A stretch of 42,268 nt of DNA from Pseudolabrys sp. GTDB taxonomy: Bacteria; Pseudomonadota; Alphaproteobacteria; Rhizobiales; Xanthobacteraceae. Location: NCBI GenBank assembly GCA_019635575.1, contig JAHBZF010000017.1:1-42268 (forward strand). The letters run 5' to 3'. Both the position numbers and the translations under genes were made by a program. Below the pieces are notes generated by a model. The model was not told where the DNA came from. It ran no database searches and saw nothing but the letters and a program-made list of their open reading frames with translations. Each line of letters opens with the position of its first letter. Position 1 is the first letter of the stretch. This document shows positions 31,038 through 39,069 of the stretch, piece by piece.

Positions 31038-31808
31038 ATGCCGATCATGACCGAACGGACGACGTCGCCAAAGACCAGTTCCCGCGCACGGCGCGGCCCG
31101 CGGCGGCGGGATTCGGCCCTGACGAAGGAATCGATCCTGCGTGCGGCGACCTATGAGTTTTGCCGGAACGGTCTCGGCGGGGCGCGGGTTGAAGCGATCG
31201 CGCAGCGCGCCAAAGCCAATATGCGTCTGCTGTATGCCTATTTCGGGGACAAGAGCGGGCTTTACATCGCGGTTCTGGAGCACGTCTACACCGAGATCCG
31301 CTCGGCGGAGCAACAACTCAACCTGGATAATCTTGATCCTGCTGCCGCCATGCGTGAACTGGTGAATTTCACCTTCACGTTTTTCGGCGAGCACCCGGAC
31401 TATATCGCGCTCATCAATACCGAGAACCTGCAGCGTGCGCAGAACATGCGGAAATCCCGCAAGATCGCGAAATTGACGCTGCCGCTGGTGACGAGCATCG
31501 AGGATATCTTGCGGCGCGGGTCTGCAGCAGACGTATTCCGGAAGGATATCGATCCAATCAATCTCTATATTTCGATCACGGCACTGAGTTATTTCCACGT
31601 GTCCAACCGTTACACACTGTCGGCCATGTTCGGGAAGGATCTCGGCGAGCCCGAATGGCTGAAAGGCCGCCGTGAGCATGCGCAGGAAATGATTTTTGCC
31701 TGGCTGACGACGGACGGGATGCAGAATCTCGTCAAGAAAGAAATGATCCGTCCGAAGGGCGAATCCCGCCGGAATGCCGTTCCGGATTTCGCGCGGAATA
31801 ACTCGTAG
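31038..31808 (+). CDS. TetR-family transcriptional regulator
   Basis: 256-aa TetR protein. A basic, low-complexity N-terminus (residues 1-28) precedes the HTH (about 33-80: ILRAATYEFCRNGLGGARVEAIAQRAK and LLYAYFGDKSGLYIAVLEHV). The C-terminal region with FTFFGEHPDYIALINTENLQRA is typical of the RutR/TetR_C group that senses small nitrogenous or aromatic compounds. It lies 28 bp upstream of the AllH-like gene, so probably the same transcript. Its likely operator is AGTAAGA-N4-TCTTACT at 32890-32907 and 37956-37973 (inference). An ATG 9 bp downstream (31047) is an alternative start. Confidence 0.9.
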   Translation: MPIMTERTTSPKTSSRARRGPRRRDSALTKESILRAATYEFCRNGLGGARVEAIAQRAKANMRLLYAYFGDKSGLYIAVLEHVYTEIRSAEQQLNLDNLDPAAAMRELVNFTFTFFGEHPDYIALINTENLQRAQNMRKSRKIAKLTLPLVTSIEDILRRGSAADVFRKDIDPINLYISITALSYFHVSNRYTLSAMFGKDLGEPEWLKGRREHAQEMIFAWLTTDGMQNLVKKEMIRPKGESRRNAVPDFARNNS

Positions 31809-31836
31809 ATCGCGGCGGCATGCCGCGTTTTGCGTG

Positions 31837-32784
31837 ATGTGGTCCGACATGCTGGAGAAGCGCCGTCACGATCGCCTGCCGCCGTCGCACGGCATCGCGA
31901 GGCATGTGACCGAGGTCGGGCTGCTTGCCCGGTCAGTGCTGCAGAGTGGCAGCGACGGTGTGGTCATGGCCGCGTTCCAGCGATGTTTCTATGCGGCGTT
32001 CGGCGACCACCTGATTTGCGTGGGTTCGCATACGCTCGGCTCCGGGCCACTGCATGTTCTCTGTGATCGCTGGCAGGACGATCTCGTCGGTGTCGGTCAG
32101 CCGATCGCGATTGAGGGGACCGCGCTCCGTGTCGATGGCGCTGTGCTGGCGGATTTTGAAATTGCGCCGACATGGCGGCCCGATCCGGCGCCCCGTTGGT
32201 CGCTGGCGAGCCTGACGGCCGGCTTGCAGGCGACCGATGCGATCTGGCGCATGACGTTCGGTGGCGAAGCGTTGGTGCCGGGTGAAGAACTGGTATCAGG
32301 CCGGTCTTCCCATCTGATCGCGGCGGCGCGGCCGGGAGTGGATGCGCTTGCCCGGATCGTCGGGGATGGATTGCGGGATTCCAGGCCTGACGCGACCGCT
32401 GGCGCCGACGTGATCGGGCTGATTGGTCTCGGGCCGGGGCTGACGCCATCGGGCGACGACGTCCTCCTCGGTGCTCTTGTTGCGCTGGGCGCGCTCGAAT
32501 TGCCGCAGGTGCGGGACACGCTTTGGCGTCAATGCCAACCCTCCCTCGATCGCACCAATGCTATCAGCCGGGCGCATCTTGAAGCAGCGGCCGGTGGCTA
32601 TGGCGCTGCGGTCTTGCACGCGGCCATTCACGCCACGATCGCTGGCCGGGTCGCGGAGCTTGATCGGGTGCTGGCGGCGGTGTCCGAGGTGGGTGAGACC
32701 TCGGGCCGCGACGCTTTCACCGGCGCGCTGGTCGCCCTGCGGACGGTGAGACGGCACGTCGCCGCTGCCGCCCGGACGCCCTGA
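31837..32784 (+). CDS. allH: AllH-like protein (DUF2877), oxamate carbamoyltransferase subunit candidate
   Basis: 315-aa protein of the DUF2877 family, whose E. coli member AllH (YlbF) has been assigned with AllF and AllG to oxamate carbamoyltransferase. The family landmark GLIGLGPGLTPSGDDVLLGALVAL is present near residue 190, and SRAHLEAAAGGYG later. It occurs here with AllG- and AllF-like proteins and a carbamate kinase, as in the E. coli all cluster, although allH is separated from the others by a 155-bp promoter region. The ATG at 31837 is preferred; 31849 is possible. No ribosome-binding site is strong. Substrate specificity (oxamate or another oxamoyl/ureide) is not provable from sequence. 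Confidence 0.82.
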   Translation: MWSDMLEKRRHDRLPPSHGIARHVTEVGLLARSVLQSGSDGVVMAAFQRCFYAAFGDHLICVGSHTLGSGPLHVLCDRWQDDLVGVGQPIAIEGTALRVDGAVLADFEIAPTWRPDPAPRWSLASLTAGLQATDAIWRMTFGGEALVPGEELVSGRSSHLIAAARPGVDALARIVGDGLRDSRPDATAGADVIGLIGLGPGLTPSGDDVLLGALVALGALELPQVRDTLWRQCQPSLDRTNAISRAHLEAAAGGYGAAVLHAAIHATIAGRVAELDRVLAAVSEVGETSGRDAFTGALVALRTVRRHVAAAARTP

Positions 32785-32882
32785 ATCGCGGCCTTCATTG
32801 CCGGAATCCCGCGGTGCGGCCGCCGGACCCTTGGCGCTGACAGCCGGAATTATCGCGCCTGTCCGAAGCCCACAGCTTTGAT

Positions 32883-32912
32883 TTGACCAAGTAAGACGTT
32901 TCTTACTAATAT
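32883..32912 (+). promoter_or_regulatory. Promoter with embedded TetR-type operator (AllG/AllF/kinase operon)
   Basis: TTGACC (32883-32888) and TAATAT (32907-32912) are separated by 18 bp. The spacer is filled by AGTAAGA-CGTT-TCTTACT (32890-32907), an 18-bp palindrome with perfect 7-bp arms. It begins one base after the -35 hexamer, so occupancy would block RNA polymerase. The same palindrome lies at 37956-37973. The rest of 32785-32939 has no other feature. Confidence 0.7.
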
Positions 32913-32939
32913 TTCGTGCCGAACAAGGAGGATACGCTG

Positions 32940-33131
32940 GTGTCGGAGAAGCGGGAACAGACCAAGTGCCAGGCGCTGCTGACGAACGACCTGACGGTGG
33001 TGAATGTCGGGCTGGAGGGCTTCGTCAAGGATCTTCAGGATTGCGGCATCGCGGTCGTGCATGTCGACTGGTCACCCCCCGCTGGCGGAGATCCGAAAAT
33101 GGCCGCGCTGCTCGCGAAACTCGGCGTGTGA
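32940..33131 (+). CDS. Small stand-alone domain protein of the FdrA/YlbE system
   Basis: 63-aa protein (GTG start) preceded by AAGGAGG 8 bp upstream. Its core NDLTVVNVGLEGFVKDLQDCG-, IAVVHVDWSPPAGGDPK resembles a short segment that, as I remember, occurs attached to FdrA- or YlbE-type proteins in other genomes. Here it is encoded separately, and AllF at 510 aa is shorter than E. coli FdrA (about 555), which would agree with a split. It is the first gene after the operator-containing promoter and ends 9 bp before allG. It could contribute a carbamoyl- or nucleotide-binding loop to the complex; its function is not established. Confidence 0.7.
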   Translation: MSEKREQTKCQALLTNDLTVVNVGLEGFVKDLQDCGIAVVHVDWSPPAGGDPKMAALLAKLGV

Positions 33132-33140
33132 GGGCAGGTC

Positions 33141-34391
33141 ATGAAACTGATCGAGGAAGCCAACAAGAAGGCGCTTTCCATCATCCTGGAAGGTGAGCCG
33201 AAGCTGATCGACATCGTCCCGGCCAAGGACGTGCTCAAGGGATTGAAGGAGCGCATGATCCTTCATGCCGGTCCACCGATCACCTGGGACCGGATGTGTG
33301 GCCCGATGCGCGGCGCCGTTGCCGGCGCCATCGTGTTCGAGGGGTGGGCTCCGGATCTGGAAGCCGCCACCAAGCTCGCGGCCGGCGGTGGCGTCGAATT
33401 CCATCCCAATCATCATTTCGGCGCGGTCGGCCCGATGACGGGCATGACGACGCTGTCGATGCCGCTGTTCGTCGTCGAGAACACGCGCTTCGGCAATCGC
33501 GCCTACTGCGCGATCAACGAAGGTCTCGGCAAGGTGATGCGCTTCGGCGGCAACGACGCCAGCGTGCTCAAGCGCCTGGCGTGGCTGCGCGATGTGTTCG
33601 GCCCGGTTCTGGGGAAAGCCATCCGTGCCAAGGGCGGCGTCGATCTCAAGGCGATCATCGCGCGCGGCCTGTCGATGGGCGACGAGATGCACCAGCGCAA
33701 TCTCGCCTGTTCGAGCATCTTCCTCCGGGAAGTCGGGCCATCGCTGGCGCGGACCTCCGACAATAACGAGATCCTTGCGGAGTGCATCGCGTTCATCGCG
33801 CAGAACGACCAGTTCTTTCTCAACATCGCCATGGCGATGGGCAAGGCGATGACCGATCCGGCCAAGGGGATTCGCGGATCGACGATCGTCACCGTGATGT
33901 CCCGCAACGGCACCGATTTCGGCGTGCGCGTCAGCGGTCTTGGCGACCGCTGGTTCACGGCGCCGGTGGAAATGCCCGAGGGTCTCTATTTCGCGGGCTT
34001 CTCGCGCAAGGATGCCAATCCGGATATGGGCGATTCCGCGATTGTCGAGACGGTCGGGCTCGGCGGATTTGCGATGGGCGCGGCCCCCGCGGTCGCCGGC
34101 TTCATCGGTGCCGGTTCGCCGTCGGCGGCGGGCGATTTCACCCGCGCCATGGGCGAGATCACCGTCGGTCAGAATCCCGAATGGACGATCCCCGCGCTCG
34201 ACTTCGCCGGCGTGCCGACCGGCATCGACGTCCGGCTCGTGGTCGAAACCGGTCTCGCCCCGGTCATCAATACCGGCATCGCGCATCGTGAGCCCGGCAT
34301 CGGCCAGGTCGGCGCCGGCGTGGTGCGCGCTCCGCTCGCCTGCTTCCAGCAGGCTGTCCTCGCCATTGCCGAAGATCTGGGGGTCTCATGA
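33141..34391 (+). CDS. allG: AllG-like protein (DUF1116, YlbE), oxamate carbamoyltransferase subunit candidate
   Basis: 416-aa protein of the DUF1116 family. The landmark ILHAGPPITWDRMCGPMRG is near residue 40, followed by GAIVFEGWA, GVEFHPNHHFGAVGPMTGMT and ENTRFGNRAYCAINEGLG; later MGEITVGQNPEWTIPALDF and GIAHREPGIGQVGAG complete the pattern. The E. coli homologue YlbE (AllG) belongs to the oxamate carbamoyltransferase set. The start follows GAGGGCAGG. The stop overlaps the next ATG by 4 bp. The many conserved His and Asp residues imply an enzyme; its detailed mechanism is not known to me. Confidence 0.88.
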   Translation: MKLIEEANKKALSIILEGEPKLIDIVPAKDVLKGLKERMILHAGPPITWDRMCGPMRGAVAGAIVFEGWAPDLEAATKLAAGGGVEFHPNHHFGAVGPMTGMTTLSMPLFVVENTRFGNRAYCAINEGLGKVMRFGGNDASVLKRLAWLRDVFGPVLGKAIRAKGGVDLKAIIARGLSMGDEMHQRNLACSSIFLREVGPSLARTSDNNEILAECIAFIAQNDQFFLNIAMAMGKAMTDPAKGIRGSTIVTVMSRNGTDFGVRVSGLGDRWFTAPVEMPEGLYFAGFSRKDANPDMGDSAIVETVGLGGFAMGAAPAVAGFIGAGSPSAAGDFTRAMGEITVGQNPEWTIPALDFAGVPTGIDVRLVVETGLAPVINTGIAHREPGIGQVGAGVVRAPLACFQQAVLAIAEDLGVS

Positions 34392-35920
34392 CCGGAGTTG
34401 TCCTGAACGAAGTCCGCAAGGGCTTCTATCTCGATTCAGTCGCGTTGATGCGGTTGTCCCGCGAGATCGCGGCGATGCCCGGCGTCGTTGAAGCGGCGCT
34501 GATGATGGGGACGCCGTCGAACCTGGCGATCATGCGCAACGCCGGCCTCCTGTCCGGCGATATCAGCACGCAAGGCAGCGATCTCATTCTGGCGGTCAAG
34601 GCCGAAACCGAACAGGCGGCGCGCACGGCGCTCGACGATGCGCTCAAGGCGCTCGACAAGCCGAAGTCGCAAGCGGGCGGAAAAAGCGAATGGCGTCCGC
34701 GCAGCATCGCCTCGGCGGTGGCGGCGACGCCCGACGCCAATATCGCGCTGATCTCGGTGCCCGGTGAATTCGCCGCGGCCGAAGCGCGCAAGGCGCTCAA
34801 TCGCGGTCTGCATGTGCTGATGTTCAGCGACAATGTCTCGATTGCCGACGAACTTTCGCTGAAGCAGCAGGCCCGCGAGGCCGGGCTGTTGATGATGGGG
34901 CCGGACTGCGGAACGGCGATCATCAATGGCGCGCCGCTCGCTTTCGCGAACAAACTCAAGCGCGGCAGCGTCGGCATCATCGGCGCGTCGGGAACCGGTA
35001 CGCAGGAAATTTCCTGTCTGGTGTCCGAGGCGGGCGTCGGCATCTCGCATGCCATCGGCGTCGGGGGGCGCGATCTCAAGAAGGATATCGGTGGCATCAC
35101 CACTTTGATGGCAATCGATGCGCTCGATGCCGATCCAGCCACCGAGCGTGTGGTGCTGGTGTCGAAGCCGCCGCATCCGGATGTAGCGAAGGCTGTCGTC
35201 GCGCGCATCGCTAGAAGTCCGAAGGCCTATACCGTCTGCTTCATCGGCGCGGCCTCGGCCGAGCTTCCGAAGAACGCCGGCTTCGCCGCGACCTTGAAGC
35301 AAGCAGCCGAACACGCGCTGGGTGGAAAGAAGATCGGAGCCGGTTTCGATCCGGCGGTTGTCGGCGCGCGCCTGTCGCGCCGGAAGGGCGCGGGGCGTAT
35401 TGAGGGACTGTTCGCCGGCGGGACGCTGTGTGCCGAAGCACAGGTGGTGTTGACCGCCGGTGGACGAAAGGTCGTGTCGAACGCGCCGATTCCAGGCGTT
35501 GCGTCGCTCGACGGCAAGGACAGCGCCGGCTGCGACCGGATGATCGACCTCGGCGCCGATGAATACACGCAGGGCCGGCCGCATCCGATGATCGATCCGT
35601 CGGTGCGTGACGACGCGCTGCGGGCCGCGCTTGTCAATCCGGATATTGCCGTCGTTCTGCTTGATCTGGTGATCGGCTACGGCGCGCACTCCGATCCTGC
35701 GTCGCATCTTGCGGGCGTCGTCGACAAGCGTGCCGCAAATGCCCCGGTGCTGATCGCGTCGGTGACGGGCACCGAACTCGATCCGCAGGTGCGTTCCGCG
35801 CAGATCAAACGCTTGGAATCAGCCGGCATCATCGTTGCGCCATCGAACGAACAGGCTTGTGAACTCGCTCTTAGCGTCATCAATGCAGACGCCAAGGTGA
35901 ATCGCCATGCGAACGCTTGA
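34388..35920 (+). CDS. allF: AllF/FdrA-like protein (succinyl-CoA synthetase alpha fold)
   Basis: 510-aa FdrA-family protein. The centre (about 195-225) has SVGIIGASGTGTQEISCLVSEAGVGISHAIGVG-, the CoA-ligase alpha-subunit fold, after a CoA-binding-like half (ANIALISVPGEFAAAEARKAL). The phospho-histidine motif of succinyl-CoA synthetase is not evident, in line with a carbamoyltransferase role instead of a ligase. E. coli FdrA (AllF) is grouped with AllG and AllH as oxamate carbamoyltransferase, which makes carbamoyl phosphate plus oxamate from oxalurate. The gene overlaps allG by 4 bp and the carbamate kinase by 14 bp. It is about 45 residues shorter than E. coli FdrA. Confidence 0.88.
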   Translation: MTGVVLNEVRKGFYLDSVALMRLSREIAAMPGVVEAALMMGTPSNLAIMRNAGLLSGDISTQGSDLILAVKAETEQAARTALDDALKALDKPKSQAGGKSEWRPRSIASAVAATPDANIALISVPGEFAAAEARKALNRGLHVLMFSDNVSIADELSLKQQAREAGLLMMGPDCGTAIINGAPLAFANKLKRGSVGIIGASGTGTQEISCLVSEAGVGISHAIGVGGRDLKKDIGGITTLMAIDALDADPATERVVLVSKPPHPDVAKAVVARIARSPKAYTVCFIGAASAELPKNAGFAATLKQAAEHALGGKKIGAGFDPAVVGARLSRRKGAGRIEGLFAGGTLCAEAQVVLTAGGRKVVSNAPIPGVASLDGKDSAGCDRMIDLGADEYTQGRPHPMIDPSVRDDALRAALVNPDIAVVLLDLVIGYGAHSDPASHLAGVVDKRAANAPVLIASVTGTELDPQVRSAQIKRLESAGIIVAPSNEQACELALSVINADAKVNRHANA

Positions 35921-36887
35921 TGAGGTTCCCCGCCGTCTGGTGATCGCGATCGGCGGAAACGCCGTTCACCCGGAGGATATCAGCGGCACCTCTGACGAGC
36001 AGAAGGTGATCGCGCAGCAGACCGCCGAGGCTTTGCTGCCGCTGGCCGAGCTCGACAATGATCTGGTGATTACGCACGGCAACGGCCCGGTGGTCGGCAA
36101 GATCATGATGCGCCAGATGCTGACCATGGATCGCATCCCGCCGATGTCGATGGACATTTGCGTGGCGCACAGCCAGGGGGGCATCGCCTATCTGCTCATG
36201 CAGGCGATGGAGAATGCGTTGCGCGAACGGGGCAATCCGCGCCATGTCGCGAGCCTGCTCACGCAGGTGGAGGTTGATCCCAACGATCCGGCCTTCACCA
36301 ATCCGACCAAGTTCGTCGGGCCGTTCTTCTCCGAGGAAGAAGCGAAACGGATCGGCGCCGAGCTCAACTGGAAGATGCGCGAAGACTCCGGGCGTGGCTG
36401 GCGTCATGTGGTGCCGTCGCCGAAGCCGAAGCATATCTGCGACATCTCGCTGGTCGATGCCCTGCTCAAGCGCGGGACCATTGTCATCGCCGGTGGCGGT
36501 GGTGGCGTGCCGGTGATCCGCGGTCCGAAAGGCACCCGCACCGGCGTGCCGGCGGTGATCGACAAGGATCTCACCTCGGCGCATATGGCGAATGTTCTCG
36601 GCATCGAGGAGTTGCTGATTTTGACGGCGGTGCCGCGCGTCGCCGTGAACTTCGGAAAGCCGAACAAGAAGGAACTGGATCAGGTCTCGCTCGACGAGAT
36701 CAAAGCTTATCACCGCGAGGGACATTTTCCGCCGGGCAGCATGGGTCCGAAGGTCGATGCGGCGATCCGATTCCTGGAAGGGGGCGGAAAGCGCGCGATC
36801 ATCAGCCACCTCGATTGCGCGATGGCTGCTTTGCGCGGCGAAACCGGCACCCATATCGTCCACGCCACGCCAGCGGCGTCATCGTGA
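35907..36887 (+). CDS. arcC: Carbamate kinase
   Basis: 326-aa amino-acid-kinase-family enzyme with an N-terminal AIGGNAVHPED (GGN at 16-18), THGNGPVVG at 56-64, AGGGGGVPVI near 196 and DKDLTSAHMANVLG near 217: the complete carbamate kinase set. It converts carbamoyl phosphate and ADP to ATP, ammonia and CO2. Downstream of AllG/AllF it would recover ATP from the carbamoyl phosphate of the transferase reaction; the E. coli equivalent in the all cluster is AllK (YbcF). The start overlaps allF by 14 bp. At 326 residues it is slightly longer than arginine-deiminase-pathway ArcC (about 310), with an insertion around 128-165, and no arginine deiminase gene is nearby. Confidence 0.93.
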   Translation: MRTLDEVPRRLVIAIGGNAVHPEDISGTSDEQKVIAQQTAEALLPLAELDNDLVITHGNGPVVGKIMMRQMLTMDRIPPMSMDICVAHSQGGIAYLLMQAMENALRERGNPRHVASLLTQVEVDPNDPAFTNPTKFVGPFFSEEEAKRIGAELNWKMREDSGRGWRHVVPSPKPKHICDISLVDALLKRGTIVIAGGGGGVPVIRGPKGTRTGVPAVIDKDLTSAHMANVLGIEELLILTAVPRVAVNFGKPNKKELDQVSLDEIKAYHREGHFPPGSMGPKVDAAIRFLEGGGKRAIISHLDCAMAALRGETGTHIVHATPAASS

Positions 36888-36898
36888 CAGGCTACCCG

Positions 36899-36918
36899 CG
36901 CGCCCGATTTTGGGCGCG
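36899..36918. terminator. Candidate bidirectional hairpin between convergent genes
   Basis: CGCGCCC (36899-36905) and GGGCGCG (36912-36918) pair around GATTTT in the 40-bp gap between the carbamate kinase and the PuuE-like gene. A perfect 7-bp GC-only stem is present, but no T-run, so this is a low-confidence terminator for either strand. Confidence 0.4.
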
Positions 36919-36927
36919 GGCTTCAGT

Positions 36928-37905
36928 TCACGGGATCGTGCCGTCCGGCAGCGTCCGGACATGCCGGGCAATCTCGCCGGCGGTGGTGATCCAGATGTCG
37001 TCGCGGCGTGCAACGATGGCCTGTAGCGCGCGCCGCAAGTGGCGCATGCGATAAGGCTGCCCCACCAGATAGGGGTGCAGCGCAATTCCCATGACGAGGG
37101 ACTGCTTCCTGGATTGCAGCAGCATCTCCTCGAAATTGTCGATGATCATGTCGGCGAACTGATCGGCGGAATCCTTCCGTCCGGCGATGGAGGGAATGTC
37201 GTTGAGTTCCTGCGGATAAGGCACGGACAGAATACGCTTGCCGTTGCGCGTCGCGAACCAGATCGGCTGATCGTCCATGCACCAGTCGAGCAGATACTCA
37301 TAGCCGGCCTCGGCCAGCAGATCGGGGGTGAGGGGGGATTGCGAAATCCAGGGGCCGAGCCAGCCGGTCGGCCGCTTCCCCTCGGCCTGAATGATGGTAT
37401 CGGTTGATTCTTTGATGAGGTCGCGTTCTTCCGCTTCCGAGAGTTGTCCCTGCCGCTCGGAATTGGTGCGGCCGTGACCGACGATTTCACAGCCGCGCTC
37501 GCGAAACGCGTCCATCACCTCGGGGCAGTAGTGATAGATGCTGCTGTTCACCAGCACCGAAACCGGCAGCGACAACTCGTCGAACAGATCGATCAGGCGC
37601 CAGACGCCCACGCGGTTGCCGTAGTCGCGCCAGGAGAAATTCAGCACGTCCGGATGCGGGCCGCCGGGCGCCAATTCGGCTCCCAAGCCTTCGCCGAAGG
37701 CAAAATGCTCAAGGTTGAGGCCGATATAAACGGCAAGCTGCTTGTTCCCCGGCCAGACGAAGTGGGGGCGGCGGGTGATCGCGGAATAATGGTAGCGCCC
37801 ATGGTGCTTCAGGAGGAGGCGAATGTCTTTCGCTGTCGCGTTGTCCACGCGCGTCCCATGAGCGGTTGTTTCACCGGTGGTCCGCGCGTTCGTCTTGTCG
37901 TTCAT
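36928..37905 (-). CDS. puuE: PuuE-like cofactor-independent allantoinase family protein (polysaccharide deacetylase fold)
   Basis: 325-aa NodB-fold protein. RYHYSAITRRPHFVWPG and LAVYIGLNLEHFAFGEGLG are signatures of the PuuE allantoinase subgroup. The first NodB motif, normally carrying the metal-binding Asp, reads NLEHF, and HGRTNSE lies at 144-150; a metal-free or altered site agrees with the cofactor-independent PuuE enzymes. It could hydrolyse allantoin or a related cyclic ureide. It is convergent with the all-type operon and its upstream region carries the same palindrome, so it is probably co-regulated. The ATG at 37905 follows GAAGGAAAA. Substrate assignment is by family and context only. 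Confidence 0.82.
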   Translation of the reverse strand: MNDKTNARTTGETTAHGTRVDNATAKDIRLLLKHHGRYHYSAITRRPHFVWPGNKQLAVYIGLNLEHFAFGEGLGAELAPGGPHPDVLNFSWRDYGNRVGVWRLIDLFDELSLPVSVLVNSSIYHYCPEVMDAFRERGCEIVGHGRTNSERQGQLSEAEERDLIKESTDTIIQAEGKRPTGWLGPWISQSPLTPDLLAEAGYEYLLDWCMDDQPIWFATRNGKRILSVPYPQELNDIPSIAGRKDSADQFADMIIDNFEEMLLQSRKQSLVMGIALHPYLVGQPYRMRHLRRALQAIVARRDDIWITTAGEIARHVRTLPDGTIP

Positions 37906-37949
37906 CGTGATTTTCCTTCGCCAGATCGTTCTGGCCGCTTGACTTTCGT

Positions 37950-37981
37950 ATAATGTTGAAGAGACTTCTTACTTCCGTCAA
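37950..37981 (-). promoter_or_regulatory. Promoter region with second TetR-type operator (PuuE-like gene)
   Basis: Read on the minus strand: TTGACG (37981-37976), then AGTAAGA-AGTC-TCTTCAA (37973-37956), then CATTAT (37955-37950). The -35, palindrome and -10-like hexamer follow in the same order as at 32883-32912. The first arm matches perfectly and the second in 4 of 7 positions. The -35/-10 spacing is 20 bp, longer than ideal. A TATAAT on the plus strand (37949-37954) could also serve the divergent liv operon. Confidence 0.6.
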
Positions 37982-38015
37982 GTTCGCGAACAAGCGACAG
38001 CGGAGGAATGCCGGA

Positions 38016-38036
38016 TGTTGCCACCTGAGGGCAACA
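38016..38036. promoter_or_regulatory. Inverted repeat between puuE-like gene and liv operon
   Basis: TGTTGCC (38016-38022) and GGCAACA (38030-38036) are perfect 7-bp arms with a 7-bp spacer, about 160 bp upstream of livH. A perfect 10-bp palindrome GTTCGCGAAC (37982-37991) lies nearby. Both are candidate regulator sites; neither matches the AGTAAGA operator. Confidence 0.35.
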
Positions 38037-38068
38037 CCAGCAATGGGAGGAGCGGCTGCGTGACAATG

Positions 38069-38088
38069 AAAAAACCGCCGAGTGGCGG
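38069..38088 (-). terminator. Small intrinsic terminator on the minus strand
   Basis: On the minus strand CCGCC-ACTC-GGCGG (38088-38075) is followed by TTTTTT (38074-38069). It lies upstream of the PuuE-like promoter, so it would stop antisense transcripts from the liv side and insulate that promoter. The stem is short (5 bp, all GC). Confidence 0.4.
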
Positions 38089-38163
38089 AACAGTGAATTT
38101 CGTTCCCCGATGCGCACCGAGCGTGCGATGATCGCGAACGACTAAGAACGTTCACAGACAGCC

Positions 38164-38193
38164 AAGGGCGAGCAAGGCAAGGGCGAGCAAGGT
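38164..38193. repeat. 15-bp tandem repeat directly before the livH start codon
   Basis: AAGGGCGAGCAAGGC (38164-38178) and AAGGGCGAGCAAGGT (38179-38193) are 14 of 15 identical and end exactly at the ATG. Each copy carries AAGGG and AAGG elements, so the ribosome-binding site of livH is duplicated. Confidence 0.6.
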
Positions 38194-39069
38194 ATGTCTC
38201 TGCTTCCGGCAATTCTGACAGGACTGGCGCTTGGCAGCATGTATGGGCTGCTTGCGCTGGGCTTTCACGTCACCTTCGCGGTGTCCGGCACGGTGAACTT
38301 TTCTCAGGGCAGTTCGATGACCCTGGGTGCCGTTGTCGGATACTTTGTCCTCATTGCGTGGGGATGGCCGACCGCATTGGGCATCCCCGTGGTCCTTTTC
38401 GCCTGCGCGATCTACGGGCTGGTCATCGAGCGTTACGCCGTGCGTCCCTTCGTGGCACGCGGTTCGGACAACTGGCTGATGGCGACGGTCGCGGTCGGCA
38501 TCATCGTCGACAATCTGATGCTGTTCGTGTTCGGCAAGGAGCCGCGCGGCTTCCCGTCGTCGCTCGCCGTCACGCCGATCCAGATCGTCGAAGGCGCCGG
38601 TGTTTATCCGCTGCAGCTCGTGATTCCGGTGATCGGGTTGCTGCTTGCGGCGGGTCTGCATCTGTTCACCCAGCGCACGCGTCATGGCGTGGCGATGCTG
38701 GCGGTGGTGCAGAATCCAAGTGCGGCAAAGCTGATGGGGATCGACGTCGGCCGGGTGATCGCCGTCAGCTACGCGGTGTCCGCGGTGCTGGCCGGGATCG
38801 CCGCGCTGCTGATCGCGCCGTTGTTCAACGTCTCGTCGGAGATGGGGACGCTGTTCGGCATCAAGGCCTTCGCCGCCGCCATCATCGGCGGTCTCGGCAG
38901 TGCCTGGGGCGTGATGCTGGCTGGTCTTTGCCTTGGCCTCATCGAAGTCCTGGCGACCGCCTATCTCGGGTCGGTCTACACCCAGATCATCACATTCGCG
39001 TCCGTCATCCTGATCCTGGTCGTCATGCCCTATGGGTTGCTCGGCCGTGCTGGAGTGAAAAAGGTTTGA
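38194..39069 (+). CDS. livH: Branched-chain-type ABC permease (LivH family)
   Basis: 291-aa inner-membrane protein with about eight hydrophobic segments. GLALGSMYGLLALGFHVTFAVSGTVNFSQG at the N-terminus, GIDVGRVIAVSYAVSAVLAGIAALL in the middle and GGLGSAWGVMLAGLCLGLIE near 237 are standard LivH landmarks. The stop codon overlaps the start of the LivM-LivG-LivF fusion by one base (TGATG). The family carries branched amino acids, urea, amides and aromatic acids; in this setting a ureide, oxamate or amide would be plausible. No periplasmic binding protein for it is in the window. Confidence 0.93.
   Translation: MSLLPAILTGLALGSMYGLLALGFHVTFAVSGTVNFSQGSSMTLGAVVGYFVLIAWGWPTALGIPVVLFACAIYGLVIERYAVRPFVARGSDNWLMATVAVGIIVDNLMLFVFGKEPRGFPSSLAVTPIQIVEGAGVYPLQLVIPVIGLLLAAGLHLFTQRTRHGVAMLAVVQNPSAAKLMGIDVGRVIAVSYAVSAVLAGIAALLIAPLFNVSSEMGTLFGIKAFAAAIIGGLGSAWGVMLAGLCLGLIEVLATAYLGSVYTQIITFASVILILVVMPYGLLGRAGVKKV

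Follow-up and report, generated by a model that had tools for sequence, protein, structure and literature searches.

A predicted TetR-type operator in the promoter of an oxamate carbamoyltransferase operon from Pseudolabrys sp.

A 42,268-nt stretch of Pseudolabrys sp. DNA (positions 1 to 42,268 of contig JAHBZF010000017.1, assembly GCA_019635575.1; hereafter the window) carries an exact palindrome inside the promoter of genes for an AllFGH-type oxamate carbamoyltransferase, an oxalurate-splitting enzyme of nitrogen scavenging. This palindrome very probably serves as operator for a TetR-family protein encoded nearby (31038-31808), which would repress the operon and act on further copies in front of a PuuE-like hydrolase gene and an NCS1 permease gene. 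From the computed sites, their conservation, their co-occurrence with the regulator, their position in promoters and the predicted protein fold, we infer the following scheme of binding, repression and induction. A TetR dimer would bind AGTAA-N8-TTACT within the core promoter and so deny RNA polymerase access to the fdrC-allG-allF-carbamate kinase operon. The same role would fall to O2, a weaker and asymmetric copy located between the PuuE-like gene and liv, and to a third copy, which precedes the NCS1 (cytosine-permease-like) gene on another contig. Repression would be lifted by an inducer, probably a ureide that these proteins make or import. The features on which this scheme draws are as follows.

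31038-31808, plus strand: tetR, TetR family, with TetR_C_29 domain and RutR-like fold (profile matches; structure model, recognition helix 62-69)
31221-31223, plus strand: codon for Met62; residue 62 covaries with operator base 6 (alignment)
32883-32888, plus strand: -35 hexamer TTGACC (promoter scan)
32890-32907, plus strand: predicted operator O1, AGTAAGACGTTTCTTACT, an exact dyad in the promoter spacer of the fdrC-allG-allF-kinase operon
32907-32912, plus strand: -10 hexamer TAATAT, 18-nt spacer (promoter scan)
37939-37944, plus strand: divergent -35-like TTGACT facing livH, putative promoter element, with a GTCAA counterpart in 13/14 aligned rows (not L035)
37956-37973, minus strand: predicted operator O2, asymmetric, 9.2 bits, minus-strand sequence AGTAAGAAGTCTCTTCAA, preceding the PuuE-like gene
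37976-37981, minus strand: -35-like TTGACG of the PuuE-like gene (read from the sequence; TTGAC in 14/14 aligned rows)

O1 reads AGTAAGA-CGTT-TCTTACT without a mismatch and has the top score in the window (26.3 bits). The initial annotation had placed it between TTGACC and TAATAT, and this is confirmed: the two hexamers form the sole promoter-like site that the scan finds in 32700-33100, the mean in shuffled sequences being 0.0. With up to three mismatches, AGTAAGA-N4-TCTTACT matches the window twice, against 0.13 expected, a count reached by none of 100 shuffles. The same annotation had proposed to look for the palindrome across the genome; in the 3.83 Mb available (83.6% complete), the perfect core AGTAA-N8-TTACT occurs only once, at O1. 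The exact 14-base pattern is overly strict for other genomes, so this relaxed core was applied there.

The protein encoded at 31038-31808 contains a TetR_N helix-turn-helix domain (PF00440, 33.8 bits, cut-off 24) and a TetR-type C-terminal ligand-binding domain (PF17938, 144.4 bits, cut-off 26.2), and residues 26-232 of its predicted model align to the TetR structure 3npi. Its association with the site was examined in the best 80 of 277 allG relatives (one scan), where a site was called at 17 bits or more and "upstream of allG" meant within 420 bp. By these thresholds 29 loci have a site upstream of allG, seven have it only elsewhere, and 44 have none. The TetR is encoded in 18 of the 80 loci, all 18 of which carry the site, and in none of the 44 site-less ones. 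The remaining 18 site loci contain no TetR in the fetched stretch; seven of them were searched genome-wide, and all seven genomes encode an ortholog (70-75% identical). In the tree, the TetRs linked to a site group in a single clade; for L135-L141 the site label was taken from an allG locus of the respective genome instead of the surrounding 1.5 kb. In 10/80 loci the site lies 42-197 bp upstream of tetR itself, the usual mark of autoregulation. In the Afipia locus (L006) tetR follows puuE in the same orientation, and in L035 it does so immediately; in both, the puuE site could serve tetR too.

The initial annotation had further proposed that the arrangement at O1 recurs on the minus strand at 37981-37950. 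That strand reads TTGACG, followed by G-AAGTAAGA-AGTC-TCTTCAACAT, so that TTGACG and one perfect AGTAAGA arm hold up, and symmetry does not: all three mismatches fall in the other arm, which ends in CTTCAA, and the promoter scan returns no promoter-like pair at O2. Taken alone the site is weak, as its 9.2 bits are equalled or exceeded at 14 of the 399,299 positions of a background set made up of 25 loci that lack the TetR. Its form AGTAA-N7-CTTCA, searched over 1.13 Mb of allG loci, occurs 19 times, and 17 of these precede 17 of the 18 puuE homologues (matches above 200 bits), the 18th (L035) having a full 24.7-bit site instead. Because this form recurs before 17/18 puuE homologues and only twice elsewhere, O2 probably functions as an operator. 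That the TetR controls the all operon alone, the site before the PuuE-like gene being a relic, is therefore an unlikely alternative. Its low score and one broken arm would suit a relic, but the CTTCA arm is kept before puuE in more than one gene order, and the full site of L035 likewise speaks for use.

The two remaining AGTAA-N7-CTTCA occurrences belong to L011 and L055, both without a PuuE match. There an amidohydrolase-like open reading frame (ORF; judged by eye) takes the place of puuE, across the site from a liv-type binding-protein gene. In the Afipia (L006) and Bradyrhizobium (L031) loci, too, the puuE site sits between divergent puuE and a liv-type binding-protein gene. The suggestion that liv might share the control of the PuuE-like gene gains support from these four loci. 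Moreover, 13 of 14 aligned upstream regions (two of them near-identical) retain both a CTTGAC and, opposite it, a GTCAAG flank, and a second promoter, facing liv, is likely on the strength of this pattern. In the window, no gene for a liv-type substrate-binding protein is present at 37906-38193, between the PuuE-like gene and livH, where the examined Afipia and Bradyrhizobium loci have one. As a separate observation, two Rhodospirillaceae metagenome-assembled genomes (L038 5472 and L050 4842) contain AATAAAAAAGTTATTACA (22.0 bits), with a remote PuuE-like match (29% identity) 129 bp downstream.

A third copy lies outside the cluster. When up to two mismatches are allowed, the only other match of the 14-base pattern in the own genome scores 24.3 bits and is found, on another contig, 140 bp before a gene for an NCS1 permease, whose nearest solved structure is the cytosine permease 7qoa. 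Among 18 other genomes searched, one encodes an ortholog of this protein (88%), and a site of 26.4 bits lies about 210 bp before its gene. Since the site is conserved in this second genome, we regard the NCS1 gene as a likely target, which would give the regulator at least one target outside the cluster. In clusters of other genomes the site also precedes a gamma-glutamyltranspeptidase (GGT)-family gene, TRAP transporter genes (L022, L027) and allH (L006). The best solved match of the GGT-family protein is 5hft, which we take to be Klebsiella HpxW, an oxamate amidohydrolase; the gene for the nearest own-genome protein (50%, L194) has no site. A third own-genome match, AGTAACCCCGCCGTTAAT (L103), was taken as chance. 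A RidA-type gene (L121, L122), ABC genes (L125-L127), a TRAP gene (L124) and a TAXI-like gene (L128) are not claimed as targets because core counts do not exceed the reversed control.

A further line of evidence links the recognition helix to the operator. Residue 62, which follows Asn61, is the first residue of this helix in the predicted model; it is M, I, P or V in 28/28 TetRs of the clade and Lys in 36/37 outside it. In a survey of 114 distinct TetRs, a perfect core was sought within 1.5 kb and found near 18 of 35 proteins with a hydrophobic residue 62, 18 of 72 with Lys62 and none of seven others, the reversed control giving 0/114. The Lys62 proteins are alphaproteobacterial paralogues with the same core, but base 6 of the half-site is C in 36/36 of their half-sites. 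Half-sites of the hydrophobic group (M/I/V/P) have G in 22 cases, T in 18, A in 5 and C in one (45/46 non-C), the lone C coming from an overlapping register in L224. When up to one mismatch is tolerated and each row is assigned its one best class, C is found throughout 29 Lys62 rows and in none of 22 hydrophobic rows, apart from one mixed row in each group; no core was detected at this tolerance within 1.5 kb in 12/35 hydrophobic and 42/72 Lys62 rows, and the reversed control occurred near 3/114.

Two tests of this pairing were made on other loci. Under the loose rule "not Lys", seven of 20 new loci were predicted to have a site and two did, the five misses having R, R, R, Q and D. Read as M/I/V/P/L, a rule not fixed beforehand and with L174 not blind, the same loci give a site in 2/2 predicted and 0/18 others. 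For the second test (29 loci) the rule was fixed first; the site was found in two of three predicted loci (L200 failed) and in 0/26 others, "no site" meaning none of the window's type. Weak matches in this test revealed that Lys62 paralogues carry AGTAAC-N6-GTTACT, by which our reading was changed; such sites may represent a second type of regulon. One lies between a Lys62 tetR and a GFO/IDH oxidoreductase gene (L085 1816), another between a Lys62 tetR and a PhyH gene that is followed by a DHDPS-family gene (L212 1486). These are the genes that were seen in the paralogue neighbourhoods scanned.

For the window protein, we infer that Met62 helps to set the base accepted 4 bp from the dyad centre. 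In general terms, we lean slightly towards the view that an alphaproteobacterial TetR subfamily reads AGTAA-N8-TTACT and that the base at a distance of 4 bp from the centre of this dyad is decided by residue 62, Lys reading C and hydrophobic residues excluding it. Such a switch would separate ureide-nitrogen regulons from those of the paralogues. The hydrophobic state arose essentially once on the tree and offers one independent pair only; no statistical test of the code is thus possible, and it stands as a lead, not a proof. Met62 aligns with a lysine of E. coli RutR (Lys52 by our count). The RutR operator consensus matches the E. coli rutA-rutR gap once at three mismatches, with C at the same distance on both sides; 32/200 shuffles give such a match as well, so it is not significant and is consistent with the pairing at best. 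In the accessible part of one article, the RutR lysine is reported to contact a base, and its acetylation to abolish binding (PMC10891134).

These data also bear on the ownership of the palindrome. Another transcription factor, unlinked or of another family, might own it, the TetR being a mere neighbour; this is very improbable. Association counts are confounded by relatedness, and other gene families of the cluster associate with the site as strongly as TetR does. On the other side, TetR and site travel together across different gene orders, a perfect core lies near 36/114 TetR genes (the control, near none), and an operator base varies in step with the recognition helix.

Position relative to the promoter was compared in 70 site contexts, a set containing near-identical relatives and, in at least two cases (L025, L145), a shifted reading of one site; L038, L042 and L050 had been excluded beforehand and 15 non-allG loci added by choice. 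TTGAC pointing at the palindrome is present within 25 nt in 59/70 (0.034 expected per site), at offsets that range from -6 to -19, the commonest being -7 and others -12, -13 and -16 to -19. A site that in this variable register covers the spacer or lies nearer the -10 argues for repression by occupancy. MerR sites habitually fill the promoter spacer, as the O1 palindrome does, but a MerR-type activator, which would bend DNA and realign -35 and -10 in an 18-19 nt spacer, is the least credible reading and was set aside, because the register is variable instead of fixed and suits occlusion better than a fixed twist, because sites precede tetR itself, and because TetR is, alongside other cluster genes, among the families most associated with site loci (18/36 vs 0/44).

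The proposal of a single repressor acting on both the all operon and the PuuE-like gene, made in the initial annotation, is thus favoured by co-occurrence, by sites before tetR, by the single clade and by the conserved asymmetric puuE site, all of them sequence-derived. Besides the missing promoter pair at O2, several observations weigh against it. Many of the compared loci are close relatives, and counts do not represent independent events. The window tetR has no site of its own. With up to one mismatch, AGTAA-N8-TTACT has three matches in the own genome vs 23 for the reversed control, and 13 related genomes together contain 22 bare cores, the same number as for the reversed control; by our count 15 of these 22 occurrences are in all or tetR neighbourhoods, and the seven elsewhere may be chance. 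Site-like stretches of 19.5-22.0 bits are found in L038, L042 and L050 with no TetR in the fetched DNA. Four site-less loci were searched genome-wide, and in one genome (L033/L145) a clade TetR is encoded elsewhere, with a 29-bit site at its own promoter and an all operon without a site. Finally, one of 36 genomes (G039) contains an exact AGTAAG-N6-CTTACT (contig C3, 438363-438380) and a best TetR match of E value 1.8e-8 only; G039 is a same-order genome without a close TetR ortholog.

The closest known counterpart of the regulator is E. coli RutR, a uracil-responsive TetR-family protein, with 26% identity. The window protein scores 52.2 bits with the RutR equivalog model, against a cut-off of 368, and its operator differs from that of RutR. 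RutR is linked to rut, whereas the scanned neighbours of the window tetR are allH, allG, allF, kinase, puuE-like and liv genes. AllS, an E. coli regulator, is of LysR type. As set out in the accessible parts of two articles, the reaction of AllFGH has been described in E. coli (PMC11326118), and the allFGHK operon is activated there by AllS and ArcA (PMC12535856). The enzymes are the same and control is local in both cases (AllR is also local), but activation there contrasts with the TetR-type repressor predicted here. Nitrifier allFGHK clusters have codB (cytosine permease) and bmpA-nupABC (nucleoside ABC transporter) as neighbours; in the accessible part of that article a gntR-family regulator appears in a figure legend, and "TetR" is absent from the main text (PMC12625717). 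Among the matches listed in our literature searches, judged by the openings of abstracts, nothing was recognised as this regulator or operator, and we do not claim that they are unpublished.

A local TetR repressor is thus ordinary in kind; the operator, the regulon and the one-residue code are the new part, as far as the literature searched tells. Alphaproteobacterial oxamate-carbamoyltransferase genes, including many from Bradyrhizobium, gain a candidate local regulator and a defined operator. The candidate co-regulated set (PuuE-like hydrolase, GGT-family Ntn hydrolase, liv or TRAP importers, NCS1 permease) offers a route towards the substrate. The pairing of residue 62 with base 6 is a simple hypothesis of DNA specificity for a large regulator family; if true, regulons would be predictable from the TetR protein sequence alone.

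The order of genes in the window is tetR, allH, O1, a 63-aa ORF, allG, allF and carbamate kinase, followed by the PuuE-like gene on the opposite strand and livH.

31774-32784, plus strand: allH, oxamate carbamoyltransferase subunit (PF11392)
32940-33131, plus strand: 63-aa ORF (fdrC), detached FdrA/AllF C-terminal segment, first gene behind O1 (NF004760 positions 498-554 of 555)
33141-34391, plus strand: allG (PF06545)
34388-35920, plus strand: allF, FdrA minus its C-terminal segment (NF004760 positions 6-501)
35907-36887, plus strand: carbamate kinase (TIGR00746, 360.9 bits, cut-off 358.25)
36928-37905, minus strand: PuuE-like hydrolase, polysaccharide-deacetylase family (131 bits, under the PuuE cut-off of 424.6)
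38194-39069, plus strand: LivH-type permease, first gene on the far side of the O2 intergenic region (PF02653)

AllF, AllG, AllH and a carbamate kinase are encoded together, as expected of AllFGH with AllK, and AllF is split. Since the 63-aa ORF and allF cover complementary parts of the FdrA model, the small part leads the operon, so AllG, which the initial annotation took for the first gene, comes second. The 63-aa segment was matched in 79/80 allG loci. The called allH ORF overlaps tetR at the latter's end (31774-31838), and the true allH start may be after the tetR stop; tetR and allH may form one transcript. The PuuE-like protein falls short of the PuuE allantoinase model, its nearest solved structure being PuuE 3cl6 (99.1 bits); with this reservation, the cluster contents appear to describe ureide uptake and breakdown through oxalurate and oxamate. 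In L010 (11958-14977) and other Bradyrhizobium loci the first allF/allG pair is followed by another, distant one, with about 41 and 48% identity.

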